Shown one piece after another: positions 29,345 to 45,798 of a DNA stretch of 64,000 nucleotides. Made by a program: the position numbers and the translations under genes. Every line of letters starts with the position of its first letter. Position 1 is the first letter of the stretch. Origin of the DNA: Hydrogenophaga sp. (GTDB taxonomy: Bacteria; Pseudomonadota; Gammaproteobacteria; Burkholderiales; Burkholderiaceae_C); assembly GCA_018333605.1 (NCBI GenBank), contig JAGXSV010000004.1, positions 1-64,000 on the forward strand, in the 5' to 3' direction. Under the pieces are notes generated by a model that worked only from the letters and a program-made list of their open reading frames with translations, did not search any database and was not told the DNA's origin.

Positions 29345-30082
29345 ATGAGTCAAAAAGTAGCGTACGTCACCGGCGGCATGGGCGGCATTGGTACCGCGAT
29401 CTGCCAGCGCCTTCACACCGAAGGTTTCAAGGTCATCGCGGGATGTGGCCCCACACGAGACCACAAAAAATGGATTGACGAACAAAAAGTACTCGGCTAC
29501 ACGTTCTACGCGTCGGTCGGTAACGTGGGTGACTGGGATTCCACCGTGGAGGCCTTCACCAAGACCAGGGCTGAGCACGGCAGCATCGACGTGCTGGTGA
29601 ACAACGCCGGCATCACCAAAGACCGCATGTTCCTCAAAATGTCCCGCGACGACTGGGATGCCGTGATGAACACCAACCTCGACTCCATGTTCAACGTGAC
29701 CAAGCAGGTCGTGGCCGACATGGTTGAAAAAGGCTGGGGCCGCATCATCAACATCTCGTCGGTGAACGGTGAAAAGGGCCAGGCTGGTCAGACCAACTAC
29801 TCGGCTGCCAAGGCCGGCATGCACGGTTTCTCGATGGCCCTGGCGCAAGAACTGGCCACCAAGGGGGTGACGGTCAATACCGTGAGTCCGGGCTACATTG
29901 GCACCGACATGGTGAATGCCATTCGTCCCGATGTGCTGGAGAAAATCGTGGCCACGGTGCCGGTCAAACGCCTGGGCAAGCCCAGCGAAATCGCGTCCAT
30001 CATCGCCTGGCTGGCGTCAGAGGAAGGTGGCTACGCCACCGGCGCTGATTTCTCGGTCAACGGCGGTTTGCACATGGGGTGA
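29345..30082 (+). CDS. phaB: Acetoacetyl-CoA reductase
   Basis: A 245-residue short-chain dehydrogenase that reduces acetoacetyl-CoA to (R)-3-hydroxybutyryl-CoA with NADPH. It has the cofactor motif YVTGGMGGIGTAICQRL, NNAGITKD, the catalytic Ser in INISSVNGEKGQAGQTNYSA and the Y-x3-K pair in NYSAAKAGMHGF; the VNGEKGQ.GQTNYSAAKAG segment is characteristic of PhaB. It completes the phaCAB pathway. A terminator follows at 30192. Confidence 0.95.
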   Translation: MSQKVAYVTGGMGGIGTAICQRLHTEGFKVIAGCGPTRDHKKWIDEQKVLGYTFYASVGNVGDWDSTVEAFTKTRAEHGSIDVLVNNAGITKDRMFLKMSRDDWDAVMNTNLDSMFNVTKQVVADMVEKGWGRIINISSVNGEKGQAGQTNYSAAKAGMHGFSMALAQELATKGVTVNTVSPGYIGTDMVNAIRPDVLEKIVATVPVKRLGKPSEIASIIAWLASEEGGYATGADFSVNGGLHMG

Positions 30083-30086
30083 CAGG

Positions 30087-30160
30087 CTCCCCCCGCGCCG
30101 CGCCTGCGGTGCGCCCCCAGGAGGGGTGACAGCTGTGGCCCGGCAAAGCCGGTTCCACGA
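30087..30160 (+). repeat. Dispersed GC-rich intergenic repeat, copy 3
   Basis: Directly after the phaB stop: CCCCGCGCCGCGCCTGCGGT, GCGCCCCCAGGAGGGG, then GTGGCCCGGCAAAGCCGGTT. It is the closest relative of copy 2 in the shared GGCCCGGCAAAGCCGGTTCC block. Confidence 0.8.
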
Positions 30161-30191
30161 TGCCTTGGGGTGTCAGACATCGCGCCTTCCC

Positions 30192-30214
30192 AGACCCGCT
30201 TTGGCGGGTCTTTT
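30192..30214 (+). terminator. Rho-independent terminator of the phaCAB operon
   Basis: Perfect eight-base stem AGACCCGC/GCGGGTCT (30192-30199 with 30204-30211) and a TTTT tail. It is immediately followed by the group IIC intron-like 5' end, as expected for that intron class. Confidence 0.85.
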
Positions 30215-30218
30215 GCTG

Positions 30219-30378
30219 GTGCGCGCAGCATGGGCGCACACCTGCGGGTGCAAGTCCCGCTGCGAGTTGGTCACAGTGAGTAAAGTGAAGCGCAACTGCG
30301 TGTGGGAGACCGAGCGTGAGAAGGAAGCGTGGAGCATGAATCGCGAGCCGATGAACAAGAGCCCCACAGAAGAACGTA
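30219..30378 (+). ncRNA. Group IIC intron 5' fragment
   Basis: Starts GTGCGCGCAGCATGGGCGCA, continues with GGGTGCAAGTCCCGC and GAGCGTGAGAAGGAAGCGTG. These match the order of conserved 5' domain I elements I recall for bacterial class C introns (GUGCGCCCGGCAUGGGUGCA, GGGUGAGAGUCCC, GAAGGAAGC). It begins five bases after the T-tract of a transcription terminator, the usual insertion site of this class. The rest of the ribozyme and the reverse transcriptase are absent; the fragment ends where the truncated integrase gene begins. Confidence 0.68.
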
Positions 30379-30734
30379 TGACTGTCGCTGTGCGCAGCCT
30401 TCCAGCTTTCCCACCATTTCTTTGCTACAGCATCGAACGTGTCTTCCACGGCAAGCCGCCGGGCGATCTTTTCGGTCTTGCGTGTGGTCATCGGGTCGGT
30501 ACCCGTGGCAAAGAGTTTTCGGACCTCGTCCACCTTGTCACAGGCCTGTTCAAGTGAGACATCTGGGTAGGACCCAACAGCCATCAGCTTTTCCTCGCCC
30601 TCAAACCGGAACCTCCATCGCCAAAGCTTGGAACCGGCTGGAGTGACCAACAGGTATAACCCCCGGCCATCGGTCAACTTGGCGGGTGTCGGGCTCTGTT
30701 TTGCATTCTGGATCTCGACGTTGGTCAGCGGCAC
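30378..30734 (-). pseudogene. N-terminal fragment of a P4-type tyrosine integrase
   Basis: About 119 codons from a GTG at 30734 (VPLTNVEIQNAKQSPTPAKL) through GRGLYLLVTPAGSKLWRWRF and RRLAVEDTFDAVAKKWWESW to SDSHT, where homology to the intact integrase at 44298-45512 stops. It is clearly a paralogue, not a perfect copy. The core-binding and catalytic domains are missing. The preceding 200 bases also match those upstream of the intact integrase. The downstream neighbour is the intron fragment. Confidence 0.9.
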
Positions 30735-30950
30735 TTTGTGCTCCTGACCGCCTCCGGAAAGTGAAATGCCCCCAGATAGCAAGGCAGATACCGCAAACGA
30801 TACCCCCAAAAAACCTGGGCTGGCAAGAACCGTTACGGGACATCCGGAAACAAAAAAACCCCGGAACACGAGGTAAACCGGGGCTTTCAGGCTGTCTTGC
30901 GAGACGTCTTGAGACGCTCTGGGACTCATTTTGGCGAGGGCGTCGTTCCC
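30735..30950 (-). repeat. Left copy of the integrase-upstream/tRNA-downstream direct repeat (candidate att region)
   Basis: Contains GGCAAGAACCGTTACGGGAC, a CCCCGG...CCGGGG terminator-like hairpin, CTTTCAGGCTGTCTTGCGAG and CTCTGGGACTCATTTTGGCG, all in the order found at 45515-45712. It ends in TTTTGGCGAGGGCG, a degenerate form of the tRNA-Ser 3' end (TTTTGGCGGAGAGGGCG). It marks the far end of the island. Confidence 0.75.
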
Positions 30951-31412
30951 ATCATGGGCTACAGGCCTTATAAAACCTCAGTTTTCTGTGATCTGAGGTT
31001 TGAGGTACCACCAAAAATACCACCAGACCCCCGGTTCTGGGTTTCATTGCCACGTTCGTAGCAGCCCTGGGCACACAGCGCACGGCTGTCCTGAGCAAAG
31101 GGCCTGGCCTTGCGTGAGCTTGTGCCCGGTGACCGGTAGGCACCAGTGTCCTTGATCAGTTGCTGTTCAGAGGCCTTGTCGGCTGCTGGATTCAGAGGCA
31201 AATCCAGCATGTCAAAGTGCTCGAAACGGACCCAGACTGCCTCTATGGATGAGTACAGGATAGGCTGATTGCCGACGATTTCACAAGTTGAGGGCCAGGC
31301 TGTCAATCAGATTGACAACGCCTGCTGAAAGCGTCTGGCAAGGCCGACGTCCGGTGCTCGCTTGGTCATGCAGAATCAAGGCTGCTTGGCGAAAAAAACC
31401 ACCGAGGGAGTT
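30951..31412. other. Island left flank without a convincing gene (462 bases)
   Basis: A minus-strand frame of 112 codons (30968-31306) contains FEHFDMLDLPLNPAADKASE but lacks a clear start signal and family match, so it is not called. A seven-base inverted repeat at 31301-31317 is listed separately. The rest shows nothing recognisable. Confidence 0.5.
31301..31317. promoter_or_regulatory. Candidate operator palindrome upstream of the SbcD-like gene
   Basis: TGTCAAT-CAG-ATTGACA, a perfect 7+7 inverted repeat with a three-base spacer, about 95 bases before the start of the nuclease gene. This is the form of a dimer-binding repressor site. No regulator gene is present in the island, so the binder would be a host protein. 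Confidence 0.5.
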
Positions 31413-32555
31413 ATGGCACTTAGATTGCTGCATTCAGCCGACTGGCAGATCGGTCGGATCTACTCGCAGTTCGAGCCCGACGATGCTGCGGCCTTGTTCG
31501 AGGCCCGCTTTCTCGCCGTCGAGCGATTGGCCACATTGGCCATCGAGCACAGCGTCGATGCCGTTCTCGTCGCCGGCGACGTGTTCGACGCGCAGACGGT
31601 CTCAGACAAGACCATTCGCCGCCTGTTCAACGCCATGCAGGGTTACACGGGGCCTTGGGTTCTCATGCCGGGCAACCACGATGCCGCATTGGCCGAGTCG
31701 GTCTGGACCCGCGCGCACCGCCTGGGTGTCATCCCCTCCAACGTCACCACCTGTCTGGAGCCGCGCGTCCATGTTGTGCAAGACCGCTTTGCGCTGCTGC
31801 CGGCGCCGCTGGTTCAACGTCACACCTATGGCGATCTGACCGAGTGGTTCGACGCAGCGCCAACGACTGAAGGCCTTTTCCGCATCGGACTGGCTCACGG
31901 GTGCGTGCAGGGCGTGCTGCCCGAGGGGGTGGACTCTGCGAACCCGATTGCGGCAGACCGCGCCGCTAAAGCGCGGCTGGACTATCTGGCCCTTGGCGAC
32001 TGGCACGGTTGCCGACGCATGGACGAGCGGACGTGGTACGCCGGCACGCCAGAAACCGACCGTTTCAAAGCCAACGACTCAGGGCAAGCGGTGCTGGTGT
32101 CGATGGAAGGGCCCAGCGCTACACCATCTGTTGAGGTGGTCGGGGTTGGCCGGTACCGTTGGCAGCAACTGGAATCGAACCTGGCCGTCTCCAGCGATGT
32201 GGAGGAAACACTGCGCAAGCTGGAACAGATCGGCGCCGACGATGTGGTGCAACTGCGCTTGTCCGGCGTGTGCGACTTGGTCGGGCAGCGGCAGTTGGAC
32301 AGCGGTGTGGAGGCCGCCCGAGCCCGGTCCAGGGCCATGCTGCTGGATTCACAAGACCTCAGTCTGGAGCCCACACAGGCAGACATGGAGGCCATTCATG
32401 CCGATGGCTACGTCGGTGAGGTGTTGCAACAACTGCGCGCCGAGCAATCGGAGGCGCAGGGCACCATCGCACGCGATGCGCTCTTGATACTGGCCTGGCT
32501 GCTGGATGATCAGGCCAAACCATCGCAGGCCAAGAACCAGGGAGCCGCTCCATGA
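31413..32555 (+). CDS. SbcD/YhaO-like metallophosphoesterase nuclease
   Basis: A 380-residue calcineurin-like phosphoesterase with the nuclease motif series LLHSADWQIGR, LVAGDVFDA, MPGNHDAA and LALGDWHGC, as in SbcD, Mre11 and YhaO. It would cut DNA ends or unusual DNA structures together with an SMC-like ATPase. The ATG at 31413 has a GAGGGAG site; the open frame extends 17 codons further up without support. Its stop overlaps the ATPase start (ATGA), so the two form a complex by analogy. Location inside an integrase-borne island suggests a defence or element-maintenance role and not host repair. Confidence 0.88.
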   Translation: MALRLLHSADWQIGRIYSQFEPDDAAALFEARFLAVERLATLAIEHSVDAVLVAGDVFDAQTVSDKTIRRLFNAMQGYTGPWVLMPGNHDAALAESVWTRAHRLGVIPSNVTTCLEPRVHVVQDRFALLPAPLVQRHTYGDLTEWFDAAPTTEGLFRIGLAHGCVQGVLPEGVDSANPIAADRAAKARLDYLALGDWHGCRRMDERTWYAGTPETDRFKANDSGQAVLVSMEGPSATPSVEVVGVGRYRWQQLESNLAVSSDVEETLRKLEQIGADDVVQLRLSGVCDLVGQRQLDSGVEAARARSRAMLLDSQDLSLEPTQADMEAIHADGYVGEVLQQLRAEQSEAQGTIARDALLILAWLLDDQAKPSQAKNQGAAP

Positions 32556-35194
32556 AGCTGCGAAAACTGCGCATCGAGCATTTCAAACGCTTCCGCGAAC
32601 CCTTGGTGATTGATGGCTTCGCCGACGGGCTCAACCTGTTCGCCGCGCCCAACGAGTCCGGCAAGTCCACCGTGGCCGAAGCCATTCGTGCGGCCTTCTT
32701 TGAGCGGCACCGCTCGGGCAGCGTGGAGCACCTGCGCCCCTGGGGCGATTCTTCTGCCACGCCTATGGTCGATGTGGAGTTCGACATGGGCGAGAAGCGG
32801 TACCACCTCACCAAGGTGTTCTTGGGCAAGAAGCGCTGTGACCTGACCATCGAAGGGCAACCCTCGCTGGACGGTGTCGCTGCTGAAGACCATCTGGCCC
32901 AGTTGCTGGGCTTCAAGTTCCCGGGCAAAGGCGCCAGCGCGCCCGAGCACATGGGCATCCCCGGCCTGCTCTGGATTCGACAAGGTACCTCGCACGAACT
33001 GGCCGACGCCGTGACCTTCGCGGCAGACCACCTGCGGCAGGTGCTGGGCGAGTCGCTGGGTGACCTAACCTCCTCCAGTGGAGACGTCGTGTTGCGGGCC
33101 GTGGAAACCGAGCGCAACGAGCTGCTGACGCCCGCCGCTGGCAACCCCAAAGGCGACTACGCCGCCGCCTTGCAGCGCAAAGCTGAGCTGACGGACGCGC
33201 TGGCCGCGCTCGACCGCGACATCGTGGCCTACCAGGGCAGCGTTGACCGACTCGCCACCCTGCGCCTAGAGCATCAGCGCGACGAGCAGGAACGGCCCTG
33301 GGTTGGCATCCGCGAGCAGCACCGGCTGGCGCAGGCCCGGCTGGAGGCGGCGCAGGGGCTCGAAGCACAACAACAGGCTGAGCAGGCCGCCCTGCAGCAG
33401 TGGCGCGCGCAGACTGCCTCCCACCGTTCGGAACTGGAGGCCTTTGCCCGCGACGATGCGGCCGTGACCACGCGCCAGCAAGCGCAGGAAAAGTGGGCTG
33501 CGGCGGAAGCCACCGCACTAACCGAGGTGCAATCCTGGGAGCGACGGCACAGCGAGGCCCTGGCCGCCGACGCGCAGGCCCGCCAGATGCTGGAGCGAGT
33601 GCGTGTAGCCGCCACGCGCGCCGATACGACCCGCGCCGCAGCCGAACTGGAAACCACGCTCGCGGCCGTGACTGACGCGCTCACCCGTGCGCGCGACGAA
33701 CGCACCCGCTTGGCCCGCCTGCAAGCCGAGGCCGAAGCCCTGGCCATCCCCGCTGCGGACTTGAAGAAGCTCAAGCAGCTGTCAGAGTCGCTGCGCGACG
33801 TGGGTGTGCGCCTGGACGCCGCAGCCACCACGCTGGAATTCGAACTGCTCGAAGGCCAATCGCTGCGCCTGGGCGCCGAAGACCTGAAGGGCCAATCACG
33901 TCGCACGGTGGTGAGCCGCACGGAGATTCAGATCGACGGCGTCGGTCGCATCGCCGTGCAGCCCGGCGGCGCCGACATCCCGGCGCTCACAGCGCAGCGC
34001 GATGACATCTCGGGCGAGCTGAGCACTTTGCTGCAGAGGCTGGCCGTTTCCAATCTGGCCGAAGCCGAAGAGCGCGCACGCCAGGCCACACAGCGTCAGC
34101 ATGAAGCCAAAGCCAGCCAGAAGGTGTTGGAAGCCTTGGCTCCCAAGGGCGTGGACACGCTGGAAGCCGAGCTGGCATCCCGCACCGTGCGCGAGGAAGA
34201 GCTGCGCGCGGCCCTCGCCGCCTTGCCGCAACCGGCGCCGGGTGACGACGATCTGCCGGTCCTGGCCACGGCGCGGGCACAGGCCGAACACACCGCCGCA
34301 GCACTGCAAGCCGCAGCCACCTCGCTCAACCAGGCCCGTGTGGCCGTCGGCAAAGCCCAGAGCGACCACGCCACCGCGAGCCAGGAACTGGCCGCAGCCC
34401 AGGCCACGGTCAATGATGCCCAACGCGCACAGCGTGTCGCCGCCGCGCGGCAGTCGTTGAGCGATGCACTGGCCCAAGAGGCCACGGCCCAGCAGCGTGT
34501 GGAGACCACCACCGCTGAGCTCAAGAGTGTGAATCTGGCCCTGCTGCGACAGGACGTTGATCGCTTCGCGCGCAGCGCACAGCAACTGGAAGAAGGCCAC
34601 GAACGCCGTCGGCAAGACATCATGCGGCTGGAAGTGGATCTCGAAACCAAGGGCGCGCTGGGCCTGGAAGAACAGGGCGCCGAGCGCCAGCGCGAGCTGG
34701 AAGCCGCCACCCGCCGCGCCGGTGAACTGGCCCGCCGCGCCGCCGCGTTGGTCCACCTGCTGGGCCTGTTGCGTGAGAAGCGCTCAGCCCTGGCACGCCG
34801 CCTGCGCGCGCCGCTGCAAAAGCACCTGGACCATTATCTGGGCATCCTGTTCCCGGGCGCGCGCATCGAGGTGGCCGACGACCTCTCGCCCGGCGCCATC
34901 ACCCGCATCGGCCCGCGCGGGCAGGAGAGTGGTGGGTTTGAGGAACTGAGCGTGGGCACACGCGAGCAGATGGGCATCGTGGCGCGGCTGGCGTATGCCG
35001 ACCTGCTGCAGGAAGCCGGCCGGCCGACGCTGCTGATCCTGGACGACGCGCTGGTCAACACCGACGACGACCGGCTGGGACAGATGAAGCGGGTGCTGTA
35101 CGACGCGGCGCAGCGGCATCAGGTGCTGATCTTCACCTGCCATCCGGCGGCTTGGCGGGATTTGGGGGTGGTGGCTCGACCCCTGGAAACTTGA
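32552..35194 (+). CDS. SbcC/YhaN-like SMC-type ATPase
   Basis: An 880-residue ABC-ATPase with split head and long coiled coil. The N-terminal head has the P-loop FAAPNESGKSTV (residues about 31-42). The central 200-720 region is rich in Ala, Glu, Gln and Arg heptads (coiled coil). The C-terminal head has the signature FEELSVGTREQMGIVARLAY and Walker B LLILDDALVNTDDDRL. I see no CxxC zinc hook in the coiled coil, unlike SbcC/Rad50, which favours the YhaN-like group. It overlaps the nuclease gene by four bases. Together they should form an end-processing complex. It is convergent with the AAA gene at 35319. Confidence 0.87.
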   Translation: MKLRKLRIEHFKRFREPLVIDGFADGLNLFAAPNESGKSTVAEAIRAAFFERHRSGSVEHLRPWGDSSATPMVDVEFDMGEKRYHLTKVFLGKKRCDLTIEGQPSLDGVAAEDHLAQLLGFKFPGKGASAPEHMGIPGLLWIRQGTSHELADAVTFAADHLRQVLGESLGDLTSSSGDVVLRAVETERNELLTPAAGNPKGDYAAALQRKAELTDALAALDRDIVAYQGSVDRLATLRLEHQRDEQERPWVGIREQHRLAQARLEAAQGLEAQQQAEQAALQQWRAQTASHRSELEAFARDDAAVTTRQQAQEKWAAAEATALTEVQSWERRHSEALAADAQARQMLERVRVAATRADTTRAAAELETTLAAVTDALTRARDERTRLARLQAEAEALAIPAADLKKLKQLSESLRDVGVRLDAAATTLEFELLEGQSLRLGAEDLKGQSRRTVVSRTEIQIDGVGRIAVQPGGADIPALTAQRDDISGELSTLLQRLAVSNLAEAEERARQATQRQHEAKASQKVLEALAPKGVDTLEAELASRTVREEELRAALAALPQPAPGDDDLPVLATARAQAEHTAAALQAAATSLNQARVAVGKAQSDHATASQELAAAQATVNDAQRAQRVAAARQSLSDALAQEATAQQRVETTTAELKSVNLALLRQDVDRFARSAQQLEEGHERRRQDIMRLEVDLETKGALGLEEQGAERQRELEAATRRAGELARRAAALVHLLGLLREKRSALARRLRAPLQKHLDHYLGILFPGARIEVADDLSPGAITRIGPRGQESGGFEELSVGTREQMGIVARLAYADLLQEAGRPTLLILDDALVNTDDDRLGQMKRVLYDAAQRHQVLIFTCHPAAWRDLGVVARPLET

Positions 35195-35318
35195 GCGCAT
35201 GTGCTCGAAAAAGGCGGGGCCTTGTGTATTCCTCAGCATAGATGATGAATATGCCGGCCTCTTTAGTGGTGAATAGATTTACCCAAATTCGAGGGGCAAG
35301 TCATATCTACTTGGTGCT

Positions 35319-37481
35319 TTAAAGGCCACTCACCTCTGTGTATAAACTTATCAGGTGATCAACCGTTAAATCAAGAATCGGCTCGTACATGAATGAGTTT
35401 AGGTGAATATTTGAGCTTACTGTGATGCTGACTTTTTCCAGTGTACGCAATGCAGAGGAAGTTGGATCCAATTTCGAGAACTCTTTCATTAGTGCGCCAA
35501 ACTGACTCTTGGAGTTACACCAGTAGCCTGGGTCATTCTTTAGAATTCTAATTCTTTGAATTAAAAATTCTTCTGATTTCATGCGAATAGCCATAGAAAG
35601 CAGAACTTTGTCTTCCAAGTTCAAGCCTGAGCGATCTTCCTCGATTGATATTTCGAGAGCCTGCTCTTCCAGCACTTGTTTTATTGACCTGTCATCACCC
35701 GGATGGTTCGTTTCAAAAATTTCGTTGTAGATATCTAGGTAGTCTTTTACAGTGATCTCGCTCGTGTCCTGCTTCAAATGAAGCAGGCTGGTCAAGCGAA
35801 GGTAGTGCTGGTTTTCTTCGCCTTTTGTGTACTCAATAAGATTCCTGGTGAATGGAATGGTTGCGCACATTGCGCGCGGATCTATATGGATTTTTTTCTT
35901 TAGAATGCCGATAAAGTAGTTGCTTATTCCGTCTGCGATCGACAGTGAAATGCCGTCGATCTGGCGATTTGCCATTAAGCATCTTTTACGGTGAACGAAA
36001 TTATTGGCAAGAGTTCTAAAGAAATCGAAATTGTGCGTCAGGATAATTTGATAGAACCTTGGGCTGTTATCCAAATCTTCTAGATATTGAACAATGGCGT
36101 GCTTGTTTTTGTAGTCAAACGAATCAGCCACATCATCGATGATAAACAGGGTTTCATCTGTTGATTGTGATCTGGATTTGGTTTCAAAAATAAAGTTCAA
36201 TAGATATAGCGCGCGTTTCTCGCCTTGACTCAAGGTTTTCATCTCAGACCGAGACCATTCGACAGTATCTTCGCCGTCTCTGAAGGTAAACTTCAGTCTT
36301 GCTTTTTCCTTTCCAAGTGCGGCTTGGGTCTGATTGAATATGGACAAGGTAAAAGGCATATCCACGAAACGATCATTAAACAGATCGACGGCTTCGGTCC
36401 ATCTGGGAGCAGCTTGGGCTGCTTGAGCTTCTATCGCATTGATCTCGTCTTTGGTTTGTTCGTGCAACTCCAGGTAATAGGTCGCGTCTGAGTTGCCTTG
36501 AATGTACTGAGACCAAAGACATCTTCGAAAGCCATCCTGATTTTCAGGTCTCAGTTTCTCAAGGAGTCTGTCAATCTGGTCTGATGTCAATTTTTCGAGT
36601 AGCTCTGTCAGTTCTTGTGTCTGAGCGTTTTTTGCTAGTCCAGTTCTTATTTTCTTTAGATGTTCATCGCTGTCTATGGTTGCATGGATTTTGTTGAGCA
36701 GCACTTCAAGTTCGGTTTTCCCAATGGCTGACTTACTCCCACGCATTTGCACCAGATGTCCTCCAGCGAAGAACCCCTGTCTATCCAGCGTTGAAAACGA
36801 TGCTTCTGCCTTGGCGGGATTAAATACACCTTTTGAGTATATTGTCCCTTCTTGGTTGAATAGCTCTTGATAGCGTGCATTAAACTCCTTGGCGCTGGCA
36901 ATGAACTCGGCGCTTTTTAGTACCTCCTGCGCTTTTGGGTCGAATAGCGTACTGTAATTTAATTCGATGAAATCCTCCTCGATTGCACCCTCTTTCAACA
37001 TTGCAATGCAGCTTGAGAAATCATTGATTCCAGCATCTTCAATCAGCTTCTTTTCTATGTCTTTTTTTGCTACACCGGATTTCTTTTGCAGAGAATTAAT
37101 TAATTTTGTTTTTTGTTTATCAAGATCAATCAATAAAGAGTCGTAGCGAGCTTTGTGTTCTGGATTGACAAGAATATTCGTGATCGCAGGACTATCCTCT
37201 TGTATGTCAATATCCGATTTGAGGACGTAGATTCTATCGCTTGAAATTGGATTCCCATCAATCAATACTTGACAGGTGGATGGCCTGTTGTATCGCTCTT
37301 CTTCTGGGGTTCTTCCTTGGGCCAGCTTCTCAAATGTCCTTGTGAAGGAGGTTTTCATAAGCCCATTTGGCGCGTATATTGCGAACGTCTTGTTGCCTGG
37401 CATCGCATTTCCAAATTCGAACTCATGCGATAGAGATCGAATGCCATAACAATTGGTGAAGCTAATTTCTATTTTATTCAT
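35319..37481 (-). CDS. AAA/ABC-type ATPase with unusual P-loop, AT-rich, probably defence-related
   Basis: A 720-residue protein of the RecF/PrrC-like ABC-ATPase kind. The P-loop reads FAIYAPNGLMKTSFTRTF (residues about 33-50), with Met replacing the Gly before the catalytic Lys (NGLMKTS in place of NGxGKS). The signature LSQGEKRALYLLNFIFE and Walker B ETLFIIDDVADSFDYKNK, followed by the switch segment IILTHNFDFFRT, are normal. The region between is helical and charged; the last 200 residues have no motif I know. Base composition is visibly AT-rich, unlike both neighbours, so the gene was acquired separately. ATPases of this kind often act as sensors in abortive-infection systems; the effector, if any, would be in its own C-terminal part or in the adjacent nuclease. 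Function unproven. Confidence 0.8.
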   Translation of the reverse strand: MNKIEISFTNCYGIRSLSHEFEFGNAMPGNKTFAIYAPNGLMKTSFTRTFEKLAQGRTPEEERYNRPSTCQVLIDGNPISSDRIYVLKSDIDIQEDSPAITNILVNPEHKARYDSLLIDLDKQKTKLINSLQKKSGVAKKDIEKKLIEDAGINDFSSCIAMLKEGAIEEDFIELNYSTLFDPKAQEVLKSAEFIASAKEFNARYQELFNQEGTIYSKGVFNPAKAEASFSTLDRQGFFAGGHLVQMRGSKSAIGKTELEVLLNKIHATIDSDEHLKKIRTGLAKNAQTQELTELLEKLTSDQIDRLLEKLRPENQDGFRRCLWSQYIQGNSDATYYLELHEQTKDEINAIEAQAAQAAPRWTEAVDLFNDRFVDMPFTLSIFNQTQAALGKEKARLKFTFRDGEDTVEWSRSEMKTLSQGEKRALYLLNFIFETKSRSQSTDETLFIIDDVADSFDYKNKHAIVQYLEDLDNSPRFYQIILTHNFDFFRTLANNFVHRKRCLMANRQIDGISLSIADGISNYFIGILKKKIHIDPRAMCATIPFTRNLIEYTKGEENQHYLRLTSLLHLKQDTSEITVKDYLDIYNEIFETNHPGDDRSIKQVLEEQALEISIEEDRSGLNLEDKVLLSMAIRMKSEEFLIQRIRILKNDPGYWCNSKSQFGALMKEFSKLDPTSSALRTLEKVSITVSSNIHLNSFMYEPILDLTVDHLISLYTEVSGL

Positions 37482-37541
37482 ATCTGTCCCTGTATTGTGT
37501 TTGAGCGATCTATTGTAATGGGATTGACTAGGGTTCCTTAT

Positions 37542-40500
37542 CTATGCACTTGCCGCCAACAGTGCTGATTCCAACCGACCCCTGCTCGCCGCCCTGAGCT
37601 TCAGCAGCCCAATCTCGCGCGCCATGCCGACGAGGGCCTCTTCTCCTGTCATTCCCTTGCCGAGAACCCACTGCGCCAGCGACACCAACTCCGGCTCGCA
37701 GATTTCTTCGACGCCGCGCACGTTGTCCTCATCTGAGGGCCAGCGGAAAGCGAACTCGGCCAGAGTGTCGACTCCTCGCGGCCAATAGAACGTGCCGCCA
37801 GCTTCCTCTGTCGCATCAAACAAGCGCCGCGCGATCTGCTCCACCCGTTCCTGAATCCGACTTCCCGTGCGCTGGAAGCCATGTGCCCGTGCGATGCGCC
37901 GCGCCAGCACCGCATCCAGCACCGGCCCTTCGTGTTGCACGACCCACTCCACCATCGGCTGCAACACCGTGTCATAGCTGGTCTCGTAGAACAGGTCGGC
38001 AGAGATGGCGCCGGGTGGCACCGCGTCGGTGGGCTGCGATGCTTGGAAGCGGCGATCCCTTTGGGTGTCGGCTCTCCCAGTGACGGGTATTGACGGCGTG
38101 GGTGCCGCCCGGGCGTAGACCGCTTCGGCAGGCTCGTCCGCTTCTTCATGGGCATCGCCGGCCAATGGTGGCAGACCTGCTGTCGCACGCGCGATGGCTG
38201 CATCGGCCTCGTTGATCGCCTGAAGACTGGGAGTTGCTTCGTCGTCGTTCGGTGCGGAGTCCGCTTCTTCGGGCGGAGCCTCGGCTTCGGCGGCTTGGCG
38301 TTCCCGGTCCTTTTCGAGCAACGCTGTTAGCGCGCCATGCACGCGTTCCAGCGTACCGCCCGGGTTCACCCACCAGTCGGTGGACCAGATGCGCACGATC
38401 TCCCAGCCCAGGCCTCGCAGCACCTGCTCACGAAGTTTGTCCCGGTCGCGCGCGGTGGCCGATCGGTGGTAGGTGGCACCGTCGCATTCCACCCCCGCGA
38501 GATACCTGCCCGCGAAGTCAGGGTGCACCACGCCCAGGTCCAGGCGGAATGACGATGCGCCGATCTGGGTGTGCACCTGCCAGCCTTTGCGACCCAGCGC
38601 TGCGGCCACCCCGGCTTCGAAAGGGCTCTCGAAGTCGCCCTGGCTGCCATGGTGTGCTTCGGCCAGAGCGCGTGGCCCGAATTCTGCAAACTCCAGGAAG
38701 TGTTTCAGGTCGCGCACGCCGGTGGCCTTGGTGCGCGACAGGTCCATCTGTTCGCCACGCAGGCTCGAGAACACACGCAGTTCGTGCCGGGCGCGCGTCA
38801 CGGCCACGTTCAGGCGCCGCTCGCCGCCGTCGCGGTTCAACGGGCCGAAGTTCATCGACACGGCACCGGCCATGTCCGGCCCGTAGGTGATCGAGAAATA
38901 CATGATGTCGCGCTCGTCACCCTGCACGCTCTCCAGGTTCTTCACGAACACCGGTTCCAGCTCCATTTCAGAGAAATAAGGTTCCAAGCCGGGGTCTTTG
39001 CGGCGCTCATCGTCAAGCAAGTCTTCGATCAGTCCTTGCTGCTCCGAGTTGAAGGTCACCACGCCGATGGTCAGGCCCGATTCCCGAAAGCCCGGGCGCT
39101 TGAGCCGGCTCACCAGATCGGCTACCAGAGCCTGGGCCTCGGGTTGGTTGATGCGGGGGCCGCCCTTTTCGTAGCGCCCCTTCACCGGGTGGAAGCTGAC
39201 GGCCCGGTCGTCGGTGACGGGCGACGGGAAGGTGACGAGGCCACCCCCGTAGTAGCGGTGGTTGCTGAAGGCGATCAGGCTTTCGTGGCGCGAGCGGTAG
39301 TGCCACGACAGGTTGCGCGTGGGCAGGCTGGCACCCAGGCATTCGTCGAGGATGCTCTCCAGGTCGCCTTCCACGACGTCGTCGTCACCGTCGGTGCTGT
39401 CGCTGCGGCCGAAGAAGTTGGTGGGGGGCAGTTGTTTCGGGTCGCCCACCATCACCACCTGTTTGCCACGGGCCATGGCACCGATGGCGTCCCACACCGG
39501 GATTTGCGAGGCCTCGTCGAACACCACCAGGTCGAAGTTGCTGGCCTCGGCCGAAAGGTACTGCGCGATCGACAGCGGGCTCATCAACAGGCACGGGGTC
39601 AGTCGCAACACCACCGACGGAATCTCTTGCAGCAGTTGACGCAGCGGTTTGTGCTGCTTCTTCTTGGTGATCTCGTGGCGCAGGATGCCCCACTCGCTGT
39701 TGCGCTGGATGCTGTCGGTCGCCGGCAGGCTGGCGCACAGCTTGGCCCGGATCCACTCGCGGGAGACCTTGGTGAACTCGTCATCCAGGGCGCGGAACTC
39801 TTTGATGCGAAGTTCGTGCTCTGCTGAGACAAACCGCTTGAGCACCTCGTCCTCGTCCACCGCTTCGGCCAGCCACCAGCGGGCGTAGTTCACCTCGAAT
39901 GCGGTGGGCACTTGCGCAGGGGTCAGGCCACCCGCCTCGATGGCGTTCACCAGTGTGGTCAGATTCGCATTGCGTGCGTCGGCCTGTGCGTGGCGCCAGG
40001 CGCACCACGCGTGCAGTCCTTGGTGACCGCCCTCCAACCGCGCTGCCGCTTCCGCCAAGTCGGATGGCGCAAGGTCGGCGAATGCGCGGCGCACGTTTTC
40101 TGGTTGAGCGGCGGTGTGGCAAAACTGGTCCATTGCCGCGTTGATCTCTACCAACTGCGCCAGCACCTGGTGACAGGCCTGGCCGATCGAGGCCGTGTCG
40201 CTCAGTTCCGCGCGGCGGGTGCCCAGCACCTTATGCAGGCTTCGCCGTGCTTGCGCAATCGAAGAGGACTCCAGCCCGAGGCCCGACAGGCCAGCCTTCA
40301 GAGAAGCGTGGAACTTCAGCGCGCGCTCAACGCCATCGCGGTCGGTATCCAGTGCATTCCAGACACCTGGGCATTCGGCAGCCAGGCCGCTCATGGACAG
40401 CAGCCGGGTTTCGACCGAGCCGCGCGTCTGCAAGAGCGCATGCTGTTGCTGCAAGGCGGGTCCGCATCGCCCTTCGGCCACATCCGGGTGCTGTGTTTGT

Positions 40501-43500
40501 AGCATGCCCCTCTGCTGCAGGACCAGGCTTTCGCGTTCAAACGCGAGCGCGGCCCGCAGCATCGCGCTGTCGGTGTCGTGACCTCGCCAAAGTCCTTGGC
40601 TGGCTTCAGCAAGCGATGCGCACTCGGCCAGGTGGTGATCCAGGTCGCACAGGGCTTTCAGGCCTTGGGCCTCGCGGGTCCAGCGTTCACCACAATAGCC
40701 TTCGGTGGCGGCCTCCAGACCGTCCAGGGAAAAGGGTTTGTGCATCCGCGCGGCGTGCAGTGCGGCGTTGGCCTTCAAGGCGCTGCGGGCGTGATCGGTT
40801 CGGGTCTTGACCCCCGACCACAAGCCTTCGGCGGCGGCGCCGGGGTTCAGTTGCTGGACCTCTTCGCGCAGGCTCTTGATGCGTACGAGCGCGGACAGAT
40901 CGTCGGCGACGCGTGGTTCCCCGGTGCCTTCGATGACGGCCTCCAGCGCACCACGCACCTTGCGCTTGCCCAACCACGACATGGGCCAGAACGACTTGTT
41001 GGCCTTGGCCCAATCGCGCTGAAGTTGCGCCACATTGAGCTGACCCACGCCAGCACCGTATTTGACGGAGAGGCTTGCGCGCAGTTGGCCCATCTCTTCG
41101 ATCCACTGCACCCCGCGCTCGATCTCGTCGCTGGCGGCAGGGGGCCATGGCGTTCTGAGTTCCGTGTGCAGGCGGCGGCGCTTGTCGAGCAGGTCGAGCG
41201 CCTGGGCCAGGCGGGTCTGCAGCTCGGTCGGCCACGGGGCGGACATCTTCGAAGAGAGCACAGCGTATTGACCGAGCAGGTCGTTGCCGGCCTTCAGCGC
41301 CGCACACACGGTATCGCTGTCCGGCAGCGCGCAGAAGCTCCAGCCATGGGTCGATGCCTGCGGTAAGACCTTGGCGAGCACACCGATGGCGGACCGGGTC
41401 TGCCGGTGCAGCGCCGGCCATTCCATGCCGAGCAATCGCTCCAGGCCCTGCGCAGCAGCCAGGAAGCCGTGGCTGGTGGTTCGCAGCGTTTGAGCAGACC
41501 TGACCATTTCCTGCTGCCACTTCGCGGACCAATCGGTGACGTGCACGGGCACCAGCGCGCCAGTCAACAGCTGGTCACGACCGACCGCTGCCGCGTTGGC
41601 CTGCAAGCGGCCCGCAAGATCGCGCAGCGCGGTCAGGGCAGCTTCGTCGTGCGCCCGGGGAGAGGTCCAGCTGAATCGCAGGTCCGGCAGCGCATGGCCG
41701 CCGACGACGCACCCGATGGCCTTAAAGATCGTCCACCCGTTGATATGGCGGTGGTGTAGGCGTTCAACATAGGTAGACAGTTGCTCGCGCACTTGACCCA
41801 GTTGCCGGGCCTTGGCTTCCCAGGTGGCTGCGTCCACTTCACCTTTGGACTCCCAGGATTTTTGGAGCTGGCTCAACACGTCGAGCTTGCGACTCTTGTT
41901 TGAATGCAATTCGAGGCAGAACTCCCCCAGCCCCACCTCGCGCAGGCGGCGGAAGACGACATCCAGCGCAGCGATCTTTTCGGCCACGAAAAGCACGCGC
42001 TTGTTTTCAGCCAGGCACTGTGCGATCAGGTTGGCAATGGTCTGGCTCTTGCCGGTGCCAGGCGGACCGATCAACACGAAGTCTTTGCCTCTGGCTGCGG
42101 CCATGACGGCTGACAGCTGGGACGAGTCTGCGGGGAGTGGGCTGAATACCTGCTGTGGCGGGTAATCGGCGTCCAACCTACGGGTCTCGGGGAAGGGCGT
42201 TGTGGATGGGTAGGGTTCGCGCGGCGTGTCGATCAGGTGCGCCACCACCGGGGACTTGCGCAAGTCGTCTGTGCGATCTGACAAGTCCTTCCACATCAGG
42301 TACTTGGCAAAGGAGAACATCGACAACACGACGTCTTCGCTGACCTCCCAGCCCCGGATGTCTTTGATGGCGCTGCGAACGCGCTTCCAGATGCCCGCGA
42401 TGTCCAGACCGGACTCATCACGCGGCAGGTCGCCAGCGGCAATGCCCAACTCCAGTTGGAAGTCCTGCCGAAGCATCTCGACCAGCGTCGGATTGAACCG
42501 CGCCTCATCTTCATGCTCTTGTAGCGTGAACCCCGACCGTGCGCTTTTGCGGTTCAGCGTGATCGGCAGCAGGATCAAAGGCGCTTTGACCCGAGAGTCA
42601 GGCTTGTCAGGACGGGTCCAGATCAGGAAACCGAGCGCGATGAAGAGTGTGTTGGAGCCGCCTTCTTGCATCGCGTTGCGGGCACCTCGATATAGATCAA
42701 CCAGGCGTCCTTCCAGTTCTTGATCTTCCAGCCGGATGAAGACCTCACGGCGCTTCAGGGCGTCTTTTGCATGCGCTTTGCGAAGGTCCTCCAGGCTTCT
42801 GGCTTCATGCAGTTGCTGGCTTCGAGGGTCTTGGCCCTGCATCAATGCAGGGCTGGGCAGGAGCTTGATCGTTTGCCCTTCTGCCAGGGTGTCTTCCAGC
42901 GCTGGCGCCGCCACGTCCAGCAGCAACGCCTTCTTCCCCTGCTTGAAGTTCAGCAGTGTGTTTCTTAGCGACAGATCGAGCAGTTTGCGTTGCCACCGGG
43001 CCAGTCTGTCTTTGGGATCGAGTTCAGATGTCGGCGTATCGGTGATGGCCTCGTCGGGGAGGTCCGGGGCATCCTCAATGCCGATCGTTCCCTCCGGTTC
43101 CACCTCGACTGGTACAGTCTCTGCGACAGCGTGCGCCTGAGCCAGCGGCTTGATCCGCGACATGCGCGCGCGCTTCACGTCGATGACCAGTTCAAACTTG
43201 TCTTCTTCCTCCTCCGACAACTGACGGTTTGCGTTGGCGATGGCCTGGCTGAAACTCACAGCTTGGCCCTGTGCCGCGAGGGTTGTTTCGAAGACCAGCA
43301 TCTCCTGCAGCTTCAAGCGCTTTCTCACCGCGGTGATGTCATCGACCACAGAGGTAGAGAACTCCTCTTCCCGAAGCCACACACCGACAAATGCGTGACC
43401 ACGGGTGAATACCAGCAAGGGGTTGAGGTGTGCCTGCTCCAGGCACGCAGCGAACAGCAGCGCAAGATCAAGGCATGTGGCCAAGCCGCCGTCGAGTACC

Positions 43501-44201
43501 TGTGAAGGACTGCGAACCTTCTGCCCTGTGTGTTCGAAACTGGCGGGTGGCAGTGCGTAGTTGAGCTTGCGCTGGAGCACAGCAGCCCAAATACCAGACG
43601 CCAACTCCCATGCCCGTTTTGAGCCATGGGCATAGCCGTCGATCGAACCGGACTTTCCACCCGTCTGCAACGCCAAAGCGGCACCCTTGAGCAGACGGTC
43701 GATAGCCTGGTCGTTCGGCTGAACGAATGCCGCAACCATTTCTGGCAGATGACCGATGCCGCCCCATTGATTGCGAGCCAGCAGTTCTACGGTGGAATCG
43801 TTCTTTGCGAGGACTTCGTCCGATTGCTTGCGACTGCGCAATTCGAAATGCAGCGAAGCTGATTCAGCTTCCGTCAAGCGCGAAAGAAGGGCACCATCCA
43901 ACTGCACGTCGAGATCACGCAGGTGATAGCTCTCGCCTGCTCCCACCGACTCGACGTTCCAGACGCGAGGCTTTACGAACGGTGGTTCGGAAATCAGTTC
44001 AACGGTCAGCTCGTTGATCGGAGACGAGGTCTCATTGACGATCACCAGTTCGTGCAACGCGGGCACCGCGTTCTGGAACGCTGCGAGATTCAGCTTCTTC
44101 GCAGCACTGACCTGCAATCGAACTGTGGGCGGTGGCACTTCTGCAACAACAGAATTTTCAGGCGTACCTGCCTCTGTCGATTGACCTGACTCCCTTGTCA
44201 T
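37542..44201 (-). CDS. Giant DUF4011-helicase-Vsr-like nuclease protein (predicted anti-phage, Hhe-like)
   Basis: A 2219-residue multidomain protein. In order: an N-terminal beta-rich region with a transglutaminase-like pair (ATCLDLALLFAACL about 245, TRGHAFVGVWL about 270); a DUF4011 segment (RLARWQRKLLDLSLRNTLLN, about 400); a superfamily 1 helicase with Walker A LIGPPGTGKSQTIANLI (about 712), Walker B VVFDEASQIPVWDAIG (about 1560), VMVGDPKQLPPTNFF and NVAVTRARHELRVFSS (about 1797); a Vsr/DUF559-like nuclease (SPFEAGVAAALGRKGWQV, LAGVECDGATYHRS, LGWEIVRIWSTDWW, about 1855-1950); and a C-terminal DUF3320-type wHTH region. As I recall, DUF4011-helicase-Vsr proteins were reported as single-gene phage defence under the name Hhe. 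The ATG at 44201 has an AAGGAG site. Confidence 0.88.
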   Translation of the reverse strand: MTRESGQSTEAGTPENSVVAEVPPPTVRLQVSAAKKLNLAAFQNAVPALHELVIVNETSSPINELTVELISEPPFVKPRVWNVESVGAGESYHLRDLDVQLDGALLSRLTEAESASLHFELRSRKQSDEVLAKNDSTVELLARNQWGGIGHLPEMVAAFVQPNDQAIDRLLKGAALALQTGGKSGSIDGYAHGSKRAWELASGIWAAVLQRKLNYALPPASFEHTGQKVRSPSQVLDGGLATCLDLALLFAACLEQAHLNPLLVFTRGHAFVGVWLREEEFSTSVVDDITAVRKRLKLQEMLVFETTLAAQGQAVSFSQAIANANRQLSEEEEDKFELVIDVKRARMSRIKPLAQAHAVAETVPVEVEPEGTIGIEDAPDLPDEAITDTPTSELDPKDRLARWQRKLLDLSLRNTLLNFKQGKKALLLDVAAPALEDTLAEGQTIKLLPSPALMQGQDPRSQQLHEARSLEDLRKAHAKDALKRREVFIRLEDQELEGRLVDLYRGARNAMQEGGSNTLFIALGFLIWTRPDKPDSRVKAPLILLPITLNRKSARSGFTLQEHEDEARFNPTLVEMLRQDFQLELGIAAGDLPRDESGLDIAGIWKRVRSAIKDIRGWEVSEDVVLSMFSFAKYLMWKDLSDRTDDLRKSPVVAHLIDTPREPYPSTTPFPETRRLDADYPPQQVFSPLPADSSQLSAVMAAARGKDFVLIGPPGTGKSQTIANLIAQCLAENKRVLFVAEKIAALDVVFRRLREVGLGEFCLELHSNKSRKLDVLSQLQKSWESKGEVDAATWEAKARQLGQVREQLSTYVERLHHRHINGWTIFKAIGCVVGGHALPDLRFSWTSPRAHDEAALTALRDLAGRLQANAAAVGRDQLLTGALVPVHVTDWSAKWQQEMVRSAQTLRTTSHGFLAAAQGLERLLGMEWPALHRQTRSAIGVLAKVLPQASTHGWSFCALPDSDTVCAALKAGNDLLGQYAVLSSKMSAPWPTELQTRLAQALDLLDKRRRLHTELRTPWPPAASDEIERGVQWIEEMGQLRASLSVKYGAGVGQLNVAQLQRDWAKANKSFWPMSWLGKRKVRGALEAVIEGTGEPRVADDLSALVRIKSLREEVQQLNPGAAAEGLWSGVKTRTDHARSALKANAALHAARMHKPFSLDGLEAATEGYCGERWTREAQGLKALCDLDHHLAECASLAEASQGLWRGHDTDSAMLRAALAFERESLVLQQRGMLQTQHPDVAEGRCGPALQQQHALLQTRGSVETRLLSMSGLAAECPGVWNALDTDRDGVERALKFHASLKAGLSGLGLESSSIAQARRSLHKVLGTRRAELSDTASIGQACHQVLAQLVEINAAMDQFCHTAAQPENVRRAFADLAPSDLAEAAARLEGGHQGLHAWCAWRHAQADARNANLTTLVNAIEAGGLTPAQVPTAFEVNYARWWLAEAVDEDEVLKRFVSAEHELRIKEFRALDDEFTKVSREWIRAKLCASLPATDSIQRNSEWGILRHEITKKKQHKPLRQLLQEIPSVVLRLTPCLLMSPLSIAQYLSAEASNFDLVVFDEASQIPVWDAIGAMARGKQVVMVGDPKQLPPTNFFGRSDSTDGDDDVVEGDLESILDECLGASLPTRNLSWHYRSRHESLIAFSNHRYYGGGLVTFPSPVTDDRAVSFHPVKGRYEKGGPRINQPEAQALVADLVSRLKRPGFRESGLTIGVVTFNSEQQGLIEDLLDDERRKDPGLEPYFSEMELEPVFVKNLESVQGDERDIMYFSITYGPDMAGAVSMNFGPLNRDGGERRLNVAVTRARHELRVFSSLRGEQMDLSRTKATGVRDLKHFLEFAEFGPRALAEAHHGSQGDFESPFEAGVAAALGRKGWQVHTQIGASSFRLDLGVVHPDFAGRYLAGVECDGATYHRSATARDRDKLREQVLRGLGWEIVRIWSTDWWVNPGGTLERVHGALTALLEKDRERQAAEAEAPPEEADSAPNDDEATPSLQAINEADAAIARATAGLPPLAGDAHEEADEPAEAVYARAAPTPSIPVTGRADTQRDRRFQASQPTDAVPPGAISADLFYETSYDTVLQPMVEWVVQHEGPVLDAVLARRIARAHGFQRTGSRIQERVEQIARRLFDATEEAGGTFYWPRGVDTLAEFAFRWPSDEDNVRGVEEICEPELVSLAQWVLGKGMTGEEALVGMAREIGLLKLRAASRGRLESALLAASA

Positions 44202-44297
44202 GCACGTTCTCCTTTTCGGCCCTATTGTGGCGCGCGAAGAACGTTGTAACAAATTTTGTCGAGGCGTTGGCCCGATACCTTCCCGACGAGCACGCTG

Positions 44298-45512
44298 CTA
44301 AGCCCGTTTACCCCTGAATGGCACCACATTGCCAGCCACGCAGGCATCCAGGTAGTTGCTCCAGGCCTGCATCATCTGGGCTCGCGGCTGCAGGTACATC
44401 GCGTGGTTGTACGAAGCGCTGACCTGGTTGCGTTCCTGGTGCGCCAGTTGTAGTTCGATGTGCTCATGTGGCCAGCCCTGTTCGTGCAGCAGCGTAGAGG
44501 CGATGCCCCGGAAGCCGTGACCTGTCATGCGGCCCGCATAGCCCATGCGACCTAGCGCGCCCAGGATGGTGTTGTTGCTCATCGACCTCTGATGGTCACG
44601 CTCGCCGGGGAAGAGTAGGGGGCTGTGACCGGTCAGGGTGTGTAGGCTTCGAAGCAGGGTCACCGCCTGTGTGGATAGGGGCACCACGTGCGGCGTCTTC
44701 ATCTTCATGCGTGACGCCGGTATGTCCCAGCGTCCACCGTCGAGGTCAAATTCTTCCCATCTCGCGCCGATCAGCTCGCTGGTTCGCACAAAGGTCATGG
44801 CCATCAGCTTGATAGCCACGCGGGTGACAGTGCTGCCGTTGTAGACCTCGATCTTGCGCAGCAGCTCGGGCAGTTCCTTGCTGTCCAGCCGCGCGTAATT
44901 TTCCTTTTTGCGCGAGGCGAGTACGTCGCTGGGGCGTATCTCCACGGCCGGGTTGCGTTTCGCCAGTCCATGGGCGATGGCGTAGCGAAAGATCTGGGAG
45001 CAGGTCTGCAACGAGCGTTTGGCGATGTCGAGGGCGCCACGTTTTTCGATGGCCTTCATCATCGCGACCAACTCGGGAGCCTCGATTTCTGCCACAGGGC
45101 GCAATCCAATGGCCGGAAAGACATCCGCCTCCAGGCGGCGCCACACATAGACCGTGTGGCTGTCGCTGCGTGCGGCTTTCCAGCTTTCCCACCATTTTTT
45201 TGCTACGGCCGCGAATGTGTCTTCGACAGCCAGACGGCGGGCGATCTTCTCGGACTTGCGGGCCGCCATCGGGTCGGAGCCCGCTGCGAGCTGCTTGCGG
45301 GCCTCGTCCACCTTGTCCCTGGCCTGGGCGAGTGACACGTCTGGGTAGGCGCCGACAGCCATCAGTTTCTCTTTCCCCAGAAAACGGTACTTCCAGCGCC
45401 AGAGCTTGGAACCTGTCGGGGTGATCAGCAGGTACAGGCCCCTGCCGTCAGCCATCTTGATGGGTGATGGGCCGGGTTTTGCCTTCAGGACTTCGGTGTT
45501 GGTCAGCGCCAT
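44298..45512 (-). CDS. P4-type tyrosine integrase of the island
   Basis: A 404-residue site-specific recombinase. The N-terminal DUF4102-type arm-binding domain reads GRGLYLLITPTGSKLWRWKY; the SAM-like core-binding part follows (VWRRLEADVFPAIGLRPVAE). The catalytic domain shows the first Arg in MTFVRTSELIGARWEEFDLD, the H-x-x-R box in MTGHGFRGIASTLLHEQGW and the Tyr region QVSASYNHAMYL. Such integrases insert elements into the 3' end of tRNA genes, and this one starts about 200 bases inside the tRNA-Ser 3' end. The start ATG (45512) aligns with the fragmentary second integrase. All catalytic segments are present, so excision may still be possible. Confidence 0.95.
   Translation of the reverse strand: MALTNTEVLKAKPGPSPIKMADGRGLYLLITPTGSKLWRWKYRFLGKEKLMAVGAYPDVSLAQARDKVDEARKQLAAGSDPMAARKSEKIARRLAVEDTFAAVAKKWWESWKAARSDSHTVYVWRRLEADVFPAIGLRPVAEIEAPELVAMMKAIEKRGALDIAKRSLQTCSQIFRYAIAHGLAKRNPAVEIRPSDVLASRKKENYARLDSKELPELLRKIEVYNGSTVTRVAIKLMAMTFVRTSELIGARWEEFDLDGGRWDIPASRMKMKTPHVVPLSTQAVTLLRSLHTLTGHSPLLFPGERDHQRSMSNNTILGALGRMGYAGRMTGHGFRGIASTLLHEQGWPHEHIELQLAHQERNQVSASYNHAMYLQPRAQMMQAWSNYLDACVAGNVVPFRGKRA

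Positions 45513-45798
<286 letters not shown>

Follow-up and report, generated by a model that had tools for sequence, protein, structure and literature searches.

The stretch analysed here (the window) comprises 64,000 nucleotides of Hydrogenophaga sp. (GenBank assembly GCA_018333605.1, 2.74 Mb and 62% complete; contig JAGXSV010000004.1, positions 1 to 64,000) and carries a 14.8-kb element, at about 30,943-45,722 and with direct repeats at both ends, beside a tRNA-Ser gene. Five genes lie on it (Table 1): an SbcD/SbcC-like pair (SbcDC), whose genes overlap by 4 bp; PDC-S46, an ATPase with a Met in its P-loop; ProA, a giant DUF4011-helicase-nuclease protein; and a P4-type tyrosine integrase. 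All five frames are intact. By its nearest named relatives the genome would be placed in Acidovorax. The SbcD-like ATG at 31413 agrees with the starts of its homologues, and ProA starts at an ATG at 44201, the listed open reading frame (ORF) beginning at a TTG further up. The chromosome continues on the left with phaC, a thiolase and an SDR gene, and on the right with an SPFH gene and an Orn/Lys/Arg decarboxylase.

A sequence-only reading of this locus had described positions 31413-44201 as a compact island of predicted DNA-acting NTPases and nucleases behind a P4-type integrase, holding an SbcDC-like pair, a Met-P-loop ATPase and a giant DUF4011-helicase-Vsr protein. The profile matches, the end repeats and the tRNA agree with that description, and all the genes named are present and open; the span holds for the genes and falls short for the element, which is larger and also takes in the integrase and both end repeats. 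Transfer genes, said to be lacking, are absent from the five genes in profile scans (the short ORFs of the element were not searched). The integrase beside a tRNA is a feature shared with P4-like phage satellites, but satellite replication or capsid-hijacking genes are likewise not among the five.

Table 1. Features of the tRNA-Ser element in the window (strand as read in the window)
Feature	Position	Strand	Evidence or remark
Left end repeat (att-like)	30702..30942	+	includes 5' end of a second, broken integrase; gapped direct repeat of ~240 bp with 45480-45722
SbcD/Mre11-like metallophosphoesterase	31413..32555	+	Pfam Metallophos 8.6e-10; Foldseek; variant motifs DWQ, GDWH
SbcC/Rad50-like ATPase without zinc hook	32552..35194	+	AAA_23 1.7e-8
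PDC-S46, Met-P-loop Rad50/SMC-type ATPase with helical C-terminal part	35319..37481	-	PADLOC
ProA, 2219 aa	37542..44201	-	NCBIfam NF058533; Pfam domains
P4-type tyrosine integrase	44298..45512	-	Arm-DNA-bind_3, Phage_int_M, Phage_integrase
Right end repeat (att-like)	45480..45722	+	extends into tRNA 3' end
tRNA-Ser(GGA), integration target	45709..45798	-	ARAGORN; Rfam RF00005

The giant protein matches NCBIfam NF058533, "anti-phage protein ProA", with 2301 bits (cut-off 1500) over profile positions 1-1901 of 1903, and we saw no decisive difference from that family; it also scores 1232 bits against PADLOC PDC-S37. A conserved Cys-His-Asp N-terminal part is followed by DUF4011, a split superfamily 1 (SF1) helicase (AAA_11/AAA_12), an MTES_1575 (Vsr-like) nuclease and DUF3320. 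The earlier assignment to a named single-gene anti-phage family therefore stands, with the class corrected to ProA: the helicase-nuclease region is common to this protein and to Hhe, reportedly a DUF4011-helicase-Vsr single-gene system originating with Gao and colleagues in 2020, but the score against NF042953 (827.7 bits) lies under the cut-off of 2000, and we rejected that name. Walker A, helicase motifs II, III, V and VI, and the acidic motifs of the nuclease are kept in all 11 aligned sequences, as is the N-terminal Cys...His...Asp set; the latter we take to resemble a transglutaminase-like triad, a likeness that no family match backs. Frames of ~800-860 aa (L027, positions 1-2520, with matches in G102, G096 and G122) share the N-terminal ~240 residues, including the Cys-His-Asp part, and have no match to the ProA helicase; this part of ProA is possibly a separate domain family.

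ProA exceeds its cut-off in 13 of 197 relatives, the window's own genome included, with genes taken from our own codon-score caller, trained on the window genes, and from plain ORFs. A related protein occurs at E 1e-50 in 329 plasmid records, 12 of which cover at least 80% of the query. In one relative (G101; L041, 3608-16076) a ProA 88% identical to that of the window follows a gene for a 2022-aa alpha-2-macroglobulin and stands without SbcDC. The open-licence literature yielded no paper describing ProA; PMC13092281 and PMC9122126 do not contain DUF4011, nor does PMC13092281 mention ProA, and DUF4011 is treated in PMC10250203.

The ATPase matches PDC-S46, a PADLOC phage defence candidate and as yet a candidate label only, over its full length (E 5.5e-224, residues 1-719). 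Its P-loop Met (APNGLMKTS) is invariant in all 14 aligned sequences, our own included and two of them apparently identical, and is therefore a family trait and no defect. The AlphaFold2 model (mean predicted local distance difference test score, pLDDT, 78; predicted template modelling score 0.47) has an extra helical C-terminal part, and among the 50 Foldseek matches listed the best are SMC/Rad50-type heads, at low query template modelling (TM) scores of 0.17-0.27; no sequence relatives were found in the PDB. Across the phylum, 13 of 398 genomes have a match at E 0.001, five of them, the window's own included, being strong. The four other strong neighbourhoods hold a type III restriction-modification locus, an AAA_15/AAA_21 ATPase, and an integrase with genes of the type VI secretion system type, the fourth being a short contig; relatives also occur in nine IMG/VR contigs and one unannotated phage record. 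The gene has a GC content of 42%, whereas the four others lie at 62-68%.

The SbcDC pair resembles SbcCD/Mre11-Rad50 in its adjacent genes, its Mre11-type fold and its Rad50-type ATPase motifs. The SbcD model (pLDDT 77) finds Mre11/SbcD structures as its best Foldseek matches (E 1e-12, TM ~0.46 on the query), and SbcC keeps Walker A, signature and Walker B, with the H-loop His kept in all aligned rows but one (L034). The pair departs from SbcCD at the metal site: SbcD reads DWQ in 20 and DLQ in one of the 21 rows that cover the first motif, in place of DxH, and GDWH, in place of GHxH, in 23 of 23, and alignment to E. coli SbcD places both changes at those motif positions. Residues D, D, N, H and H, which we take to be metal ligands, are kept; one His has become Gln and one Asp. 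A zinc-hook CxxC is found in none of the 23 SbcC rows, our own included, and the window SbcD scores 49.2 bits against TIGR00619, under the cut-off of 77.65. The altered motifs, the missing CxxC and the low score together indicate a divergent Mre11-Rad50-like pair, not a standard SbcCD. The 23-row alignments contain the Acidovorax defluvii genes twice (L046, L073) and two near copies (L028, L029) that lack the SbcD N-terminus owing to the gene caller used; L055, L059 and L061, partial or on the same contigs as other loci, were dropped before the counts. PADLOC 2.0 gave no match for SbcD and only weak ATPase-head matches for SbcC, the best to GajA at 2.9e-7.

An orthologous island stands at the same tRNA site in A. 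defluvii (L046, L072, L073), where SbcDC is 94-96%, ProA 90% and the integrase 91% identical to the window. The position held by PDC-S46 in the window is taken there by HerA and DUF4297, the window stretch from 35175 to 37606 being unmatched; AbiEi, near the left end, is present only in A. defluvii. The ratio of nonsynonymous to synonymous divergence (dN/dS) is 0.09-0.18, without internal stops, in SbcD, SbcC, ProA and the integrase (the A. defluvii island lacks PDC-S46) and stays below 0.2 in all nine genes compared, four of the island and five of the host; these four are therefore selected genes, not chance ORFs. Synonymous divergence (dS; bootstrap 5-95% in brackets) is 0.74-0.91 in the five host genes and 0.76 (0.66-0.95) in the integrase, against 0.42 (0.39-0.47) in ProA, 0.17 (0.13-0.23) in SbcD and 0.14 (0.12-0.17) in SbcC. 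This module-specific pattern argues for piecemeal exchange of the cargo behind an integrase that stayed in place, and we conclude from the divergence that the integrase has diverged along with the host and that SbcDC and the front of ProA were exchanged recently. ProA is a mosaic between the two islands: in 200-codon windows its dS is 0.01-0.09 within codons 1-500 and 0.79-1.04 within codons 901-1400.

The target site is a hotspot. The tRNA-Ser/SPFH stretch has some match in 67 of 67 same-genus genomes, our own included, a few of them only short. From the matches in the 66 other genomes we hand-picked 36 sites (matches under 60 aa were not printed; the stretches of L124, L135 and L130 measure only 1.6, 8.6 and 10.2 kb), and the integrase is near full-length at 83% identity or more in eight and partial in two, while SbcD, SbcC, PDC-S46 and ProA occur in none within the stretches fetched. 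Ten proteins scanned from five integrase-bearing stretches, not assigned to island interior or exterior, include two nitronate monooxygenases, a VirB4-type ATPase, a LysE transporter and a DEAD-box helicase that is modestly similar to several defence helicases. In L154 (7903-11594), close to this integrase at tRNA-Ser, a DEAD-box helicase of such similarity and its 345-aa partner form a possible uncharacterised defence pair. In the window itself, a second P4-type integrase frame (ORF 30057-30929, minus strand, arm domain only) adjoins the left end repeat and is probably what is left of an earlier tandem element at this tRNA.

The modules mostly occur apart. Strong SbcC (at least 300 bits; 10 of the 13 that pass E 0.001) is present in 10 of the 197 relatives, and together with ProA in three, our own included; leaving out the window genome, two genomes carry both against ~0.6 expected, the two belong to one genus, and their SbcC and ProA lie ~49 kb apart or on different contigs. 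In the fragmented genome G074, two separate short contigs carry a partial SbcC and a ProA match that stays below the cut-off. SbcDC and ProA recur side by side only in the orthologous A. defluvii island. ProA stands without SbcDC in G101 and G051, and in an Acidovorax metagenome-assembled genome (MAG; L047) SbcDC lies ~420 bp 3' of the same tRNA without an intervening ProA or integrase; its contig begins just upstream of SbcD. Given swapped neighbours and separate occurrence, the modules combine freely.

Taken together, we assign a probability of about 0.7 to the element being a defence island that lies in the chromosome at a tRNA-Ser hotspot and carries its own integrase, with three modules that were acquired separately and act against phage DNA by different routes. 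The analysis establishes the gene content, the kept motifs, purifying selection on four of the five genes, the element ends, a same-site homologue with swapped cargo and the module-specific divergence; the low GC of PDC-S46 also speaks for this reading. In type the mobile island looks familiar and ordinary, often reshuffled, combining a named system (ProA), a listed candidate (PDC-S46) and a variant repair-type pair (SbcDC). Several observations weigh against this view: two islands have SbcDC and ProA together, and in four genomes SbcDC has DUF4297-HerA as its neighbour; the title of the A. defluvii record reads UNVERIFIED_CONTAM, although its flanks match the window chromosome in order; and the dS of 1.52 in the first 100 codons of the integrase, like that of mid-ProA, could reflect exchange with divergent donors, NG86 estimates of dS being rough near 1. 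The sequence-only reading had left open separate or cooperating modules, setting both others apart from the giant protein's system: ProA alone is the NF058533 match, and the comparisons favour independent modules in one island over one cooperating system. Its proposal of a new defence combination is not supported in the genomes searched, as eight of the 36 sites carry the full-length integrase and none carries any module, only three of 197 genomes have SbcC and ProA, the middle module is swapped and the modules differ in age; the pattern is close to the "random association" named beforehand as speaking against a new combination.

The part least settled is the SbcDC pair, whose role in defence is a candidate, not a result. 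The most credible alternative, though still less likely than not, is that it is a plain DNA-repair nuclease of Mre11-Rad50-type activity hitch-hiking on the island. None of 66 same-genus genomes has an SbcD over the TIGR00619 cut-off (sub-threshold matches occur in 14, including that of the window; a further SbcD-like frame of ~440 aa scores 53-60 bits in four genomes, and a 55-residue piece reaches 72.5 bits in one), which fits a repair role, as do SbcC occurring as if resident in seven genomes of genus g64 and three of g355 (counts from the order search, given without genus totals), the common housekeeping context beside HI0933 in Ottowia and a Comamonadaceae MAG, and the lack of any confirmed SbcC relative in IMG/VR; some further copies stand among metabolic or housekeeping genes. 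Against it, SbcDC is patchy in Acidovorax and found in mobile contexts, and elsewhere its neighbours include GajA (L052), PDC-M21A (L048; placed by coordinates), PDC-S06 with SoFic (L026) and a mads_3-like ATPase (L051). On a Sphingomonas sp. NY01 plasmid (L186) an SbcDC-like pair has genes for an ATP-dependent endonuclease and a DEAD/DEAH helicase in its vicinity.

We make no claim that SbcDC is enriched near defence genes. The 126 neighbouring proteins of 13 loci matched 54 PADLOC families at 1e-15, the 25 listed being GajA, GajB, mads_3, PDC-M21A, PDC-S01, PDC-S02, PDC-M66A and AriA models; the control, 148 proteins from 12 stretches beside the tRNA-Ser site (ten proteins of L147 left out), also matched, with 35 families, the 25 listed being RT, AbiQ, Cas1, homing endonuclease, DEDDh, mads_3 and PDC-S48 models. 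The PADLOC tables give family names without assigning them to loci. PDC-S01, with 23 matches in one genome, is apparently a repeated insertion sequence.

A less likely alternative is that SbcDC is an accessory that trims or degrades DNA ends made by a partner nuclease (DUF4297-HerA or ProA), the whole forming one extended system. It draws on the SbcD-SbcC-DUF4297-HerA run, whose genes follow one another in this order and on a single strand both in a Burkholderia aenigmatica plasmid (a 35-bp gap, then a 4-bp overlap) and, beside a TnsD-like gene, in two same-genus loci that are near copies of each other (G039, G047), and on the presence of all four genes in A. defluvii; there, a distant DUF4297 (27% identity) and HerA (43%) lie on the opposite strand, which suggests a separate pairing. 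Yet SbcC (21 genomes) and HerA of this type (6) coincide at E 1e-60 in none of 399 genomes of the order, a set that excludes the four genomes with SbcDC beside DUF4297-HerA. Eight plasmid records carry this DUF4297, and one of four inspected has SbcDC beside it, another having an unpaired ATPase nearby tagged double-strand break repair; of five SbcDC loci inspected on plasmids, those of Variovorax, Ideonella and Rhizobium lack any named defence gene next to the pair. Variovorax sp. SRS16 carries AbiEi and DUF4297-HerA, and Paraburkholderia sabiae DUF4297, a DUF87 protein and a DUF3320 protein, both without SbcDC. Neither DUF4297 nor HerA is among the window's five island genes, and no such HerA is found at E 1e-60 in its 62%-complete genome. 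The two-component DUF4297-HerA defence system (PMC11291478) is a feature of the A. defluvii island, at the PDC-S46 position, and absent from the window; that paper does not mention SbcC or Mre11, and no paper on the SbcDC-DUF4297-HerA run was found in the open-licence literature.

It is similarly doubtful that the hookless pair with its Gln- and Asp-substituted ligands is a mobile anti-phage module, attacking phage DNA ends and pluggable into different partners (DUF4297-HerA in one gene run, Gabija, PDC-S06/SoFic and ProA). A single new composite system built from all the modules, at which the compact layout and the joint presence of SbcDC and ProA in two islands might hint, is very improbable given the swapped middle module, the divergence per module, the empty 36 hotspot sites and separate occurrence elsewhere.

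Returning to an island of independent modules, we propose, from domains and family name, that ProA would most likely act alone, its DUF4011/SF1 helicase motor loading on or moving along foreign DNA that the MTES_1575 nuclease may then cut. PDC-S46 would most likely be an ATP-driven sensor of the Rad50/SMC type with the helical C-terminal part as putative effector, and SbcDC an ATP-gated nuclease for DNA ends or hairpins, of Mre11-Rad50 type, that may serve repair and possibly attack free phage DNA ends.

The locus is a well-resolved case of defence-island change, in which the integrase has diverged like host genes and the cargo modules are of clearly different ages, with PDC-S46 in one of two orthologous islands and DUF4297-HerA in its place in the other. 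A concrete candidate defence module also emerges, a variant pair of Mre11-Rad50 kind for which PADLOC 2.0 has no dedicated model. If that pair does prove to be a mobile anti-phage module, an ancient repair complex would have become an exchangeable part of defence islands.

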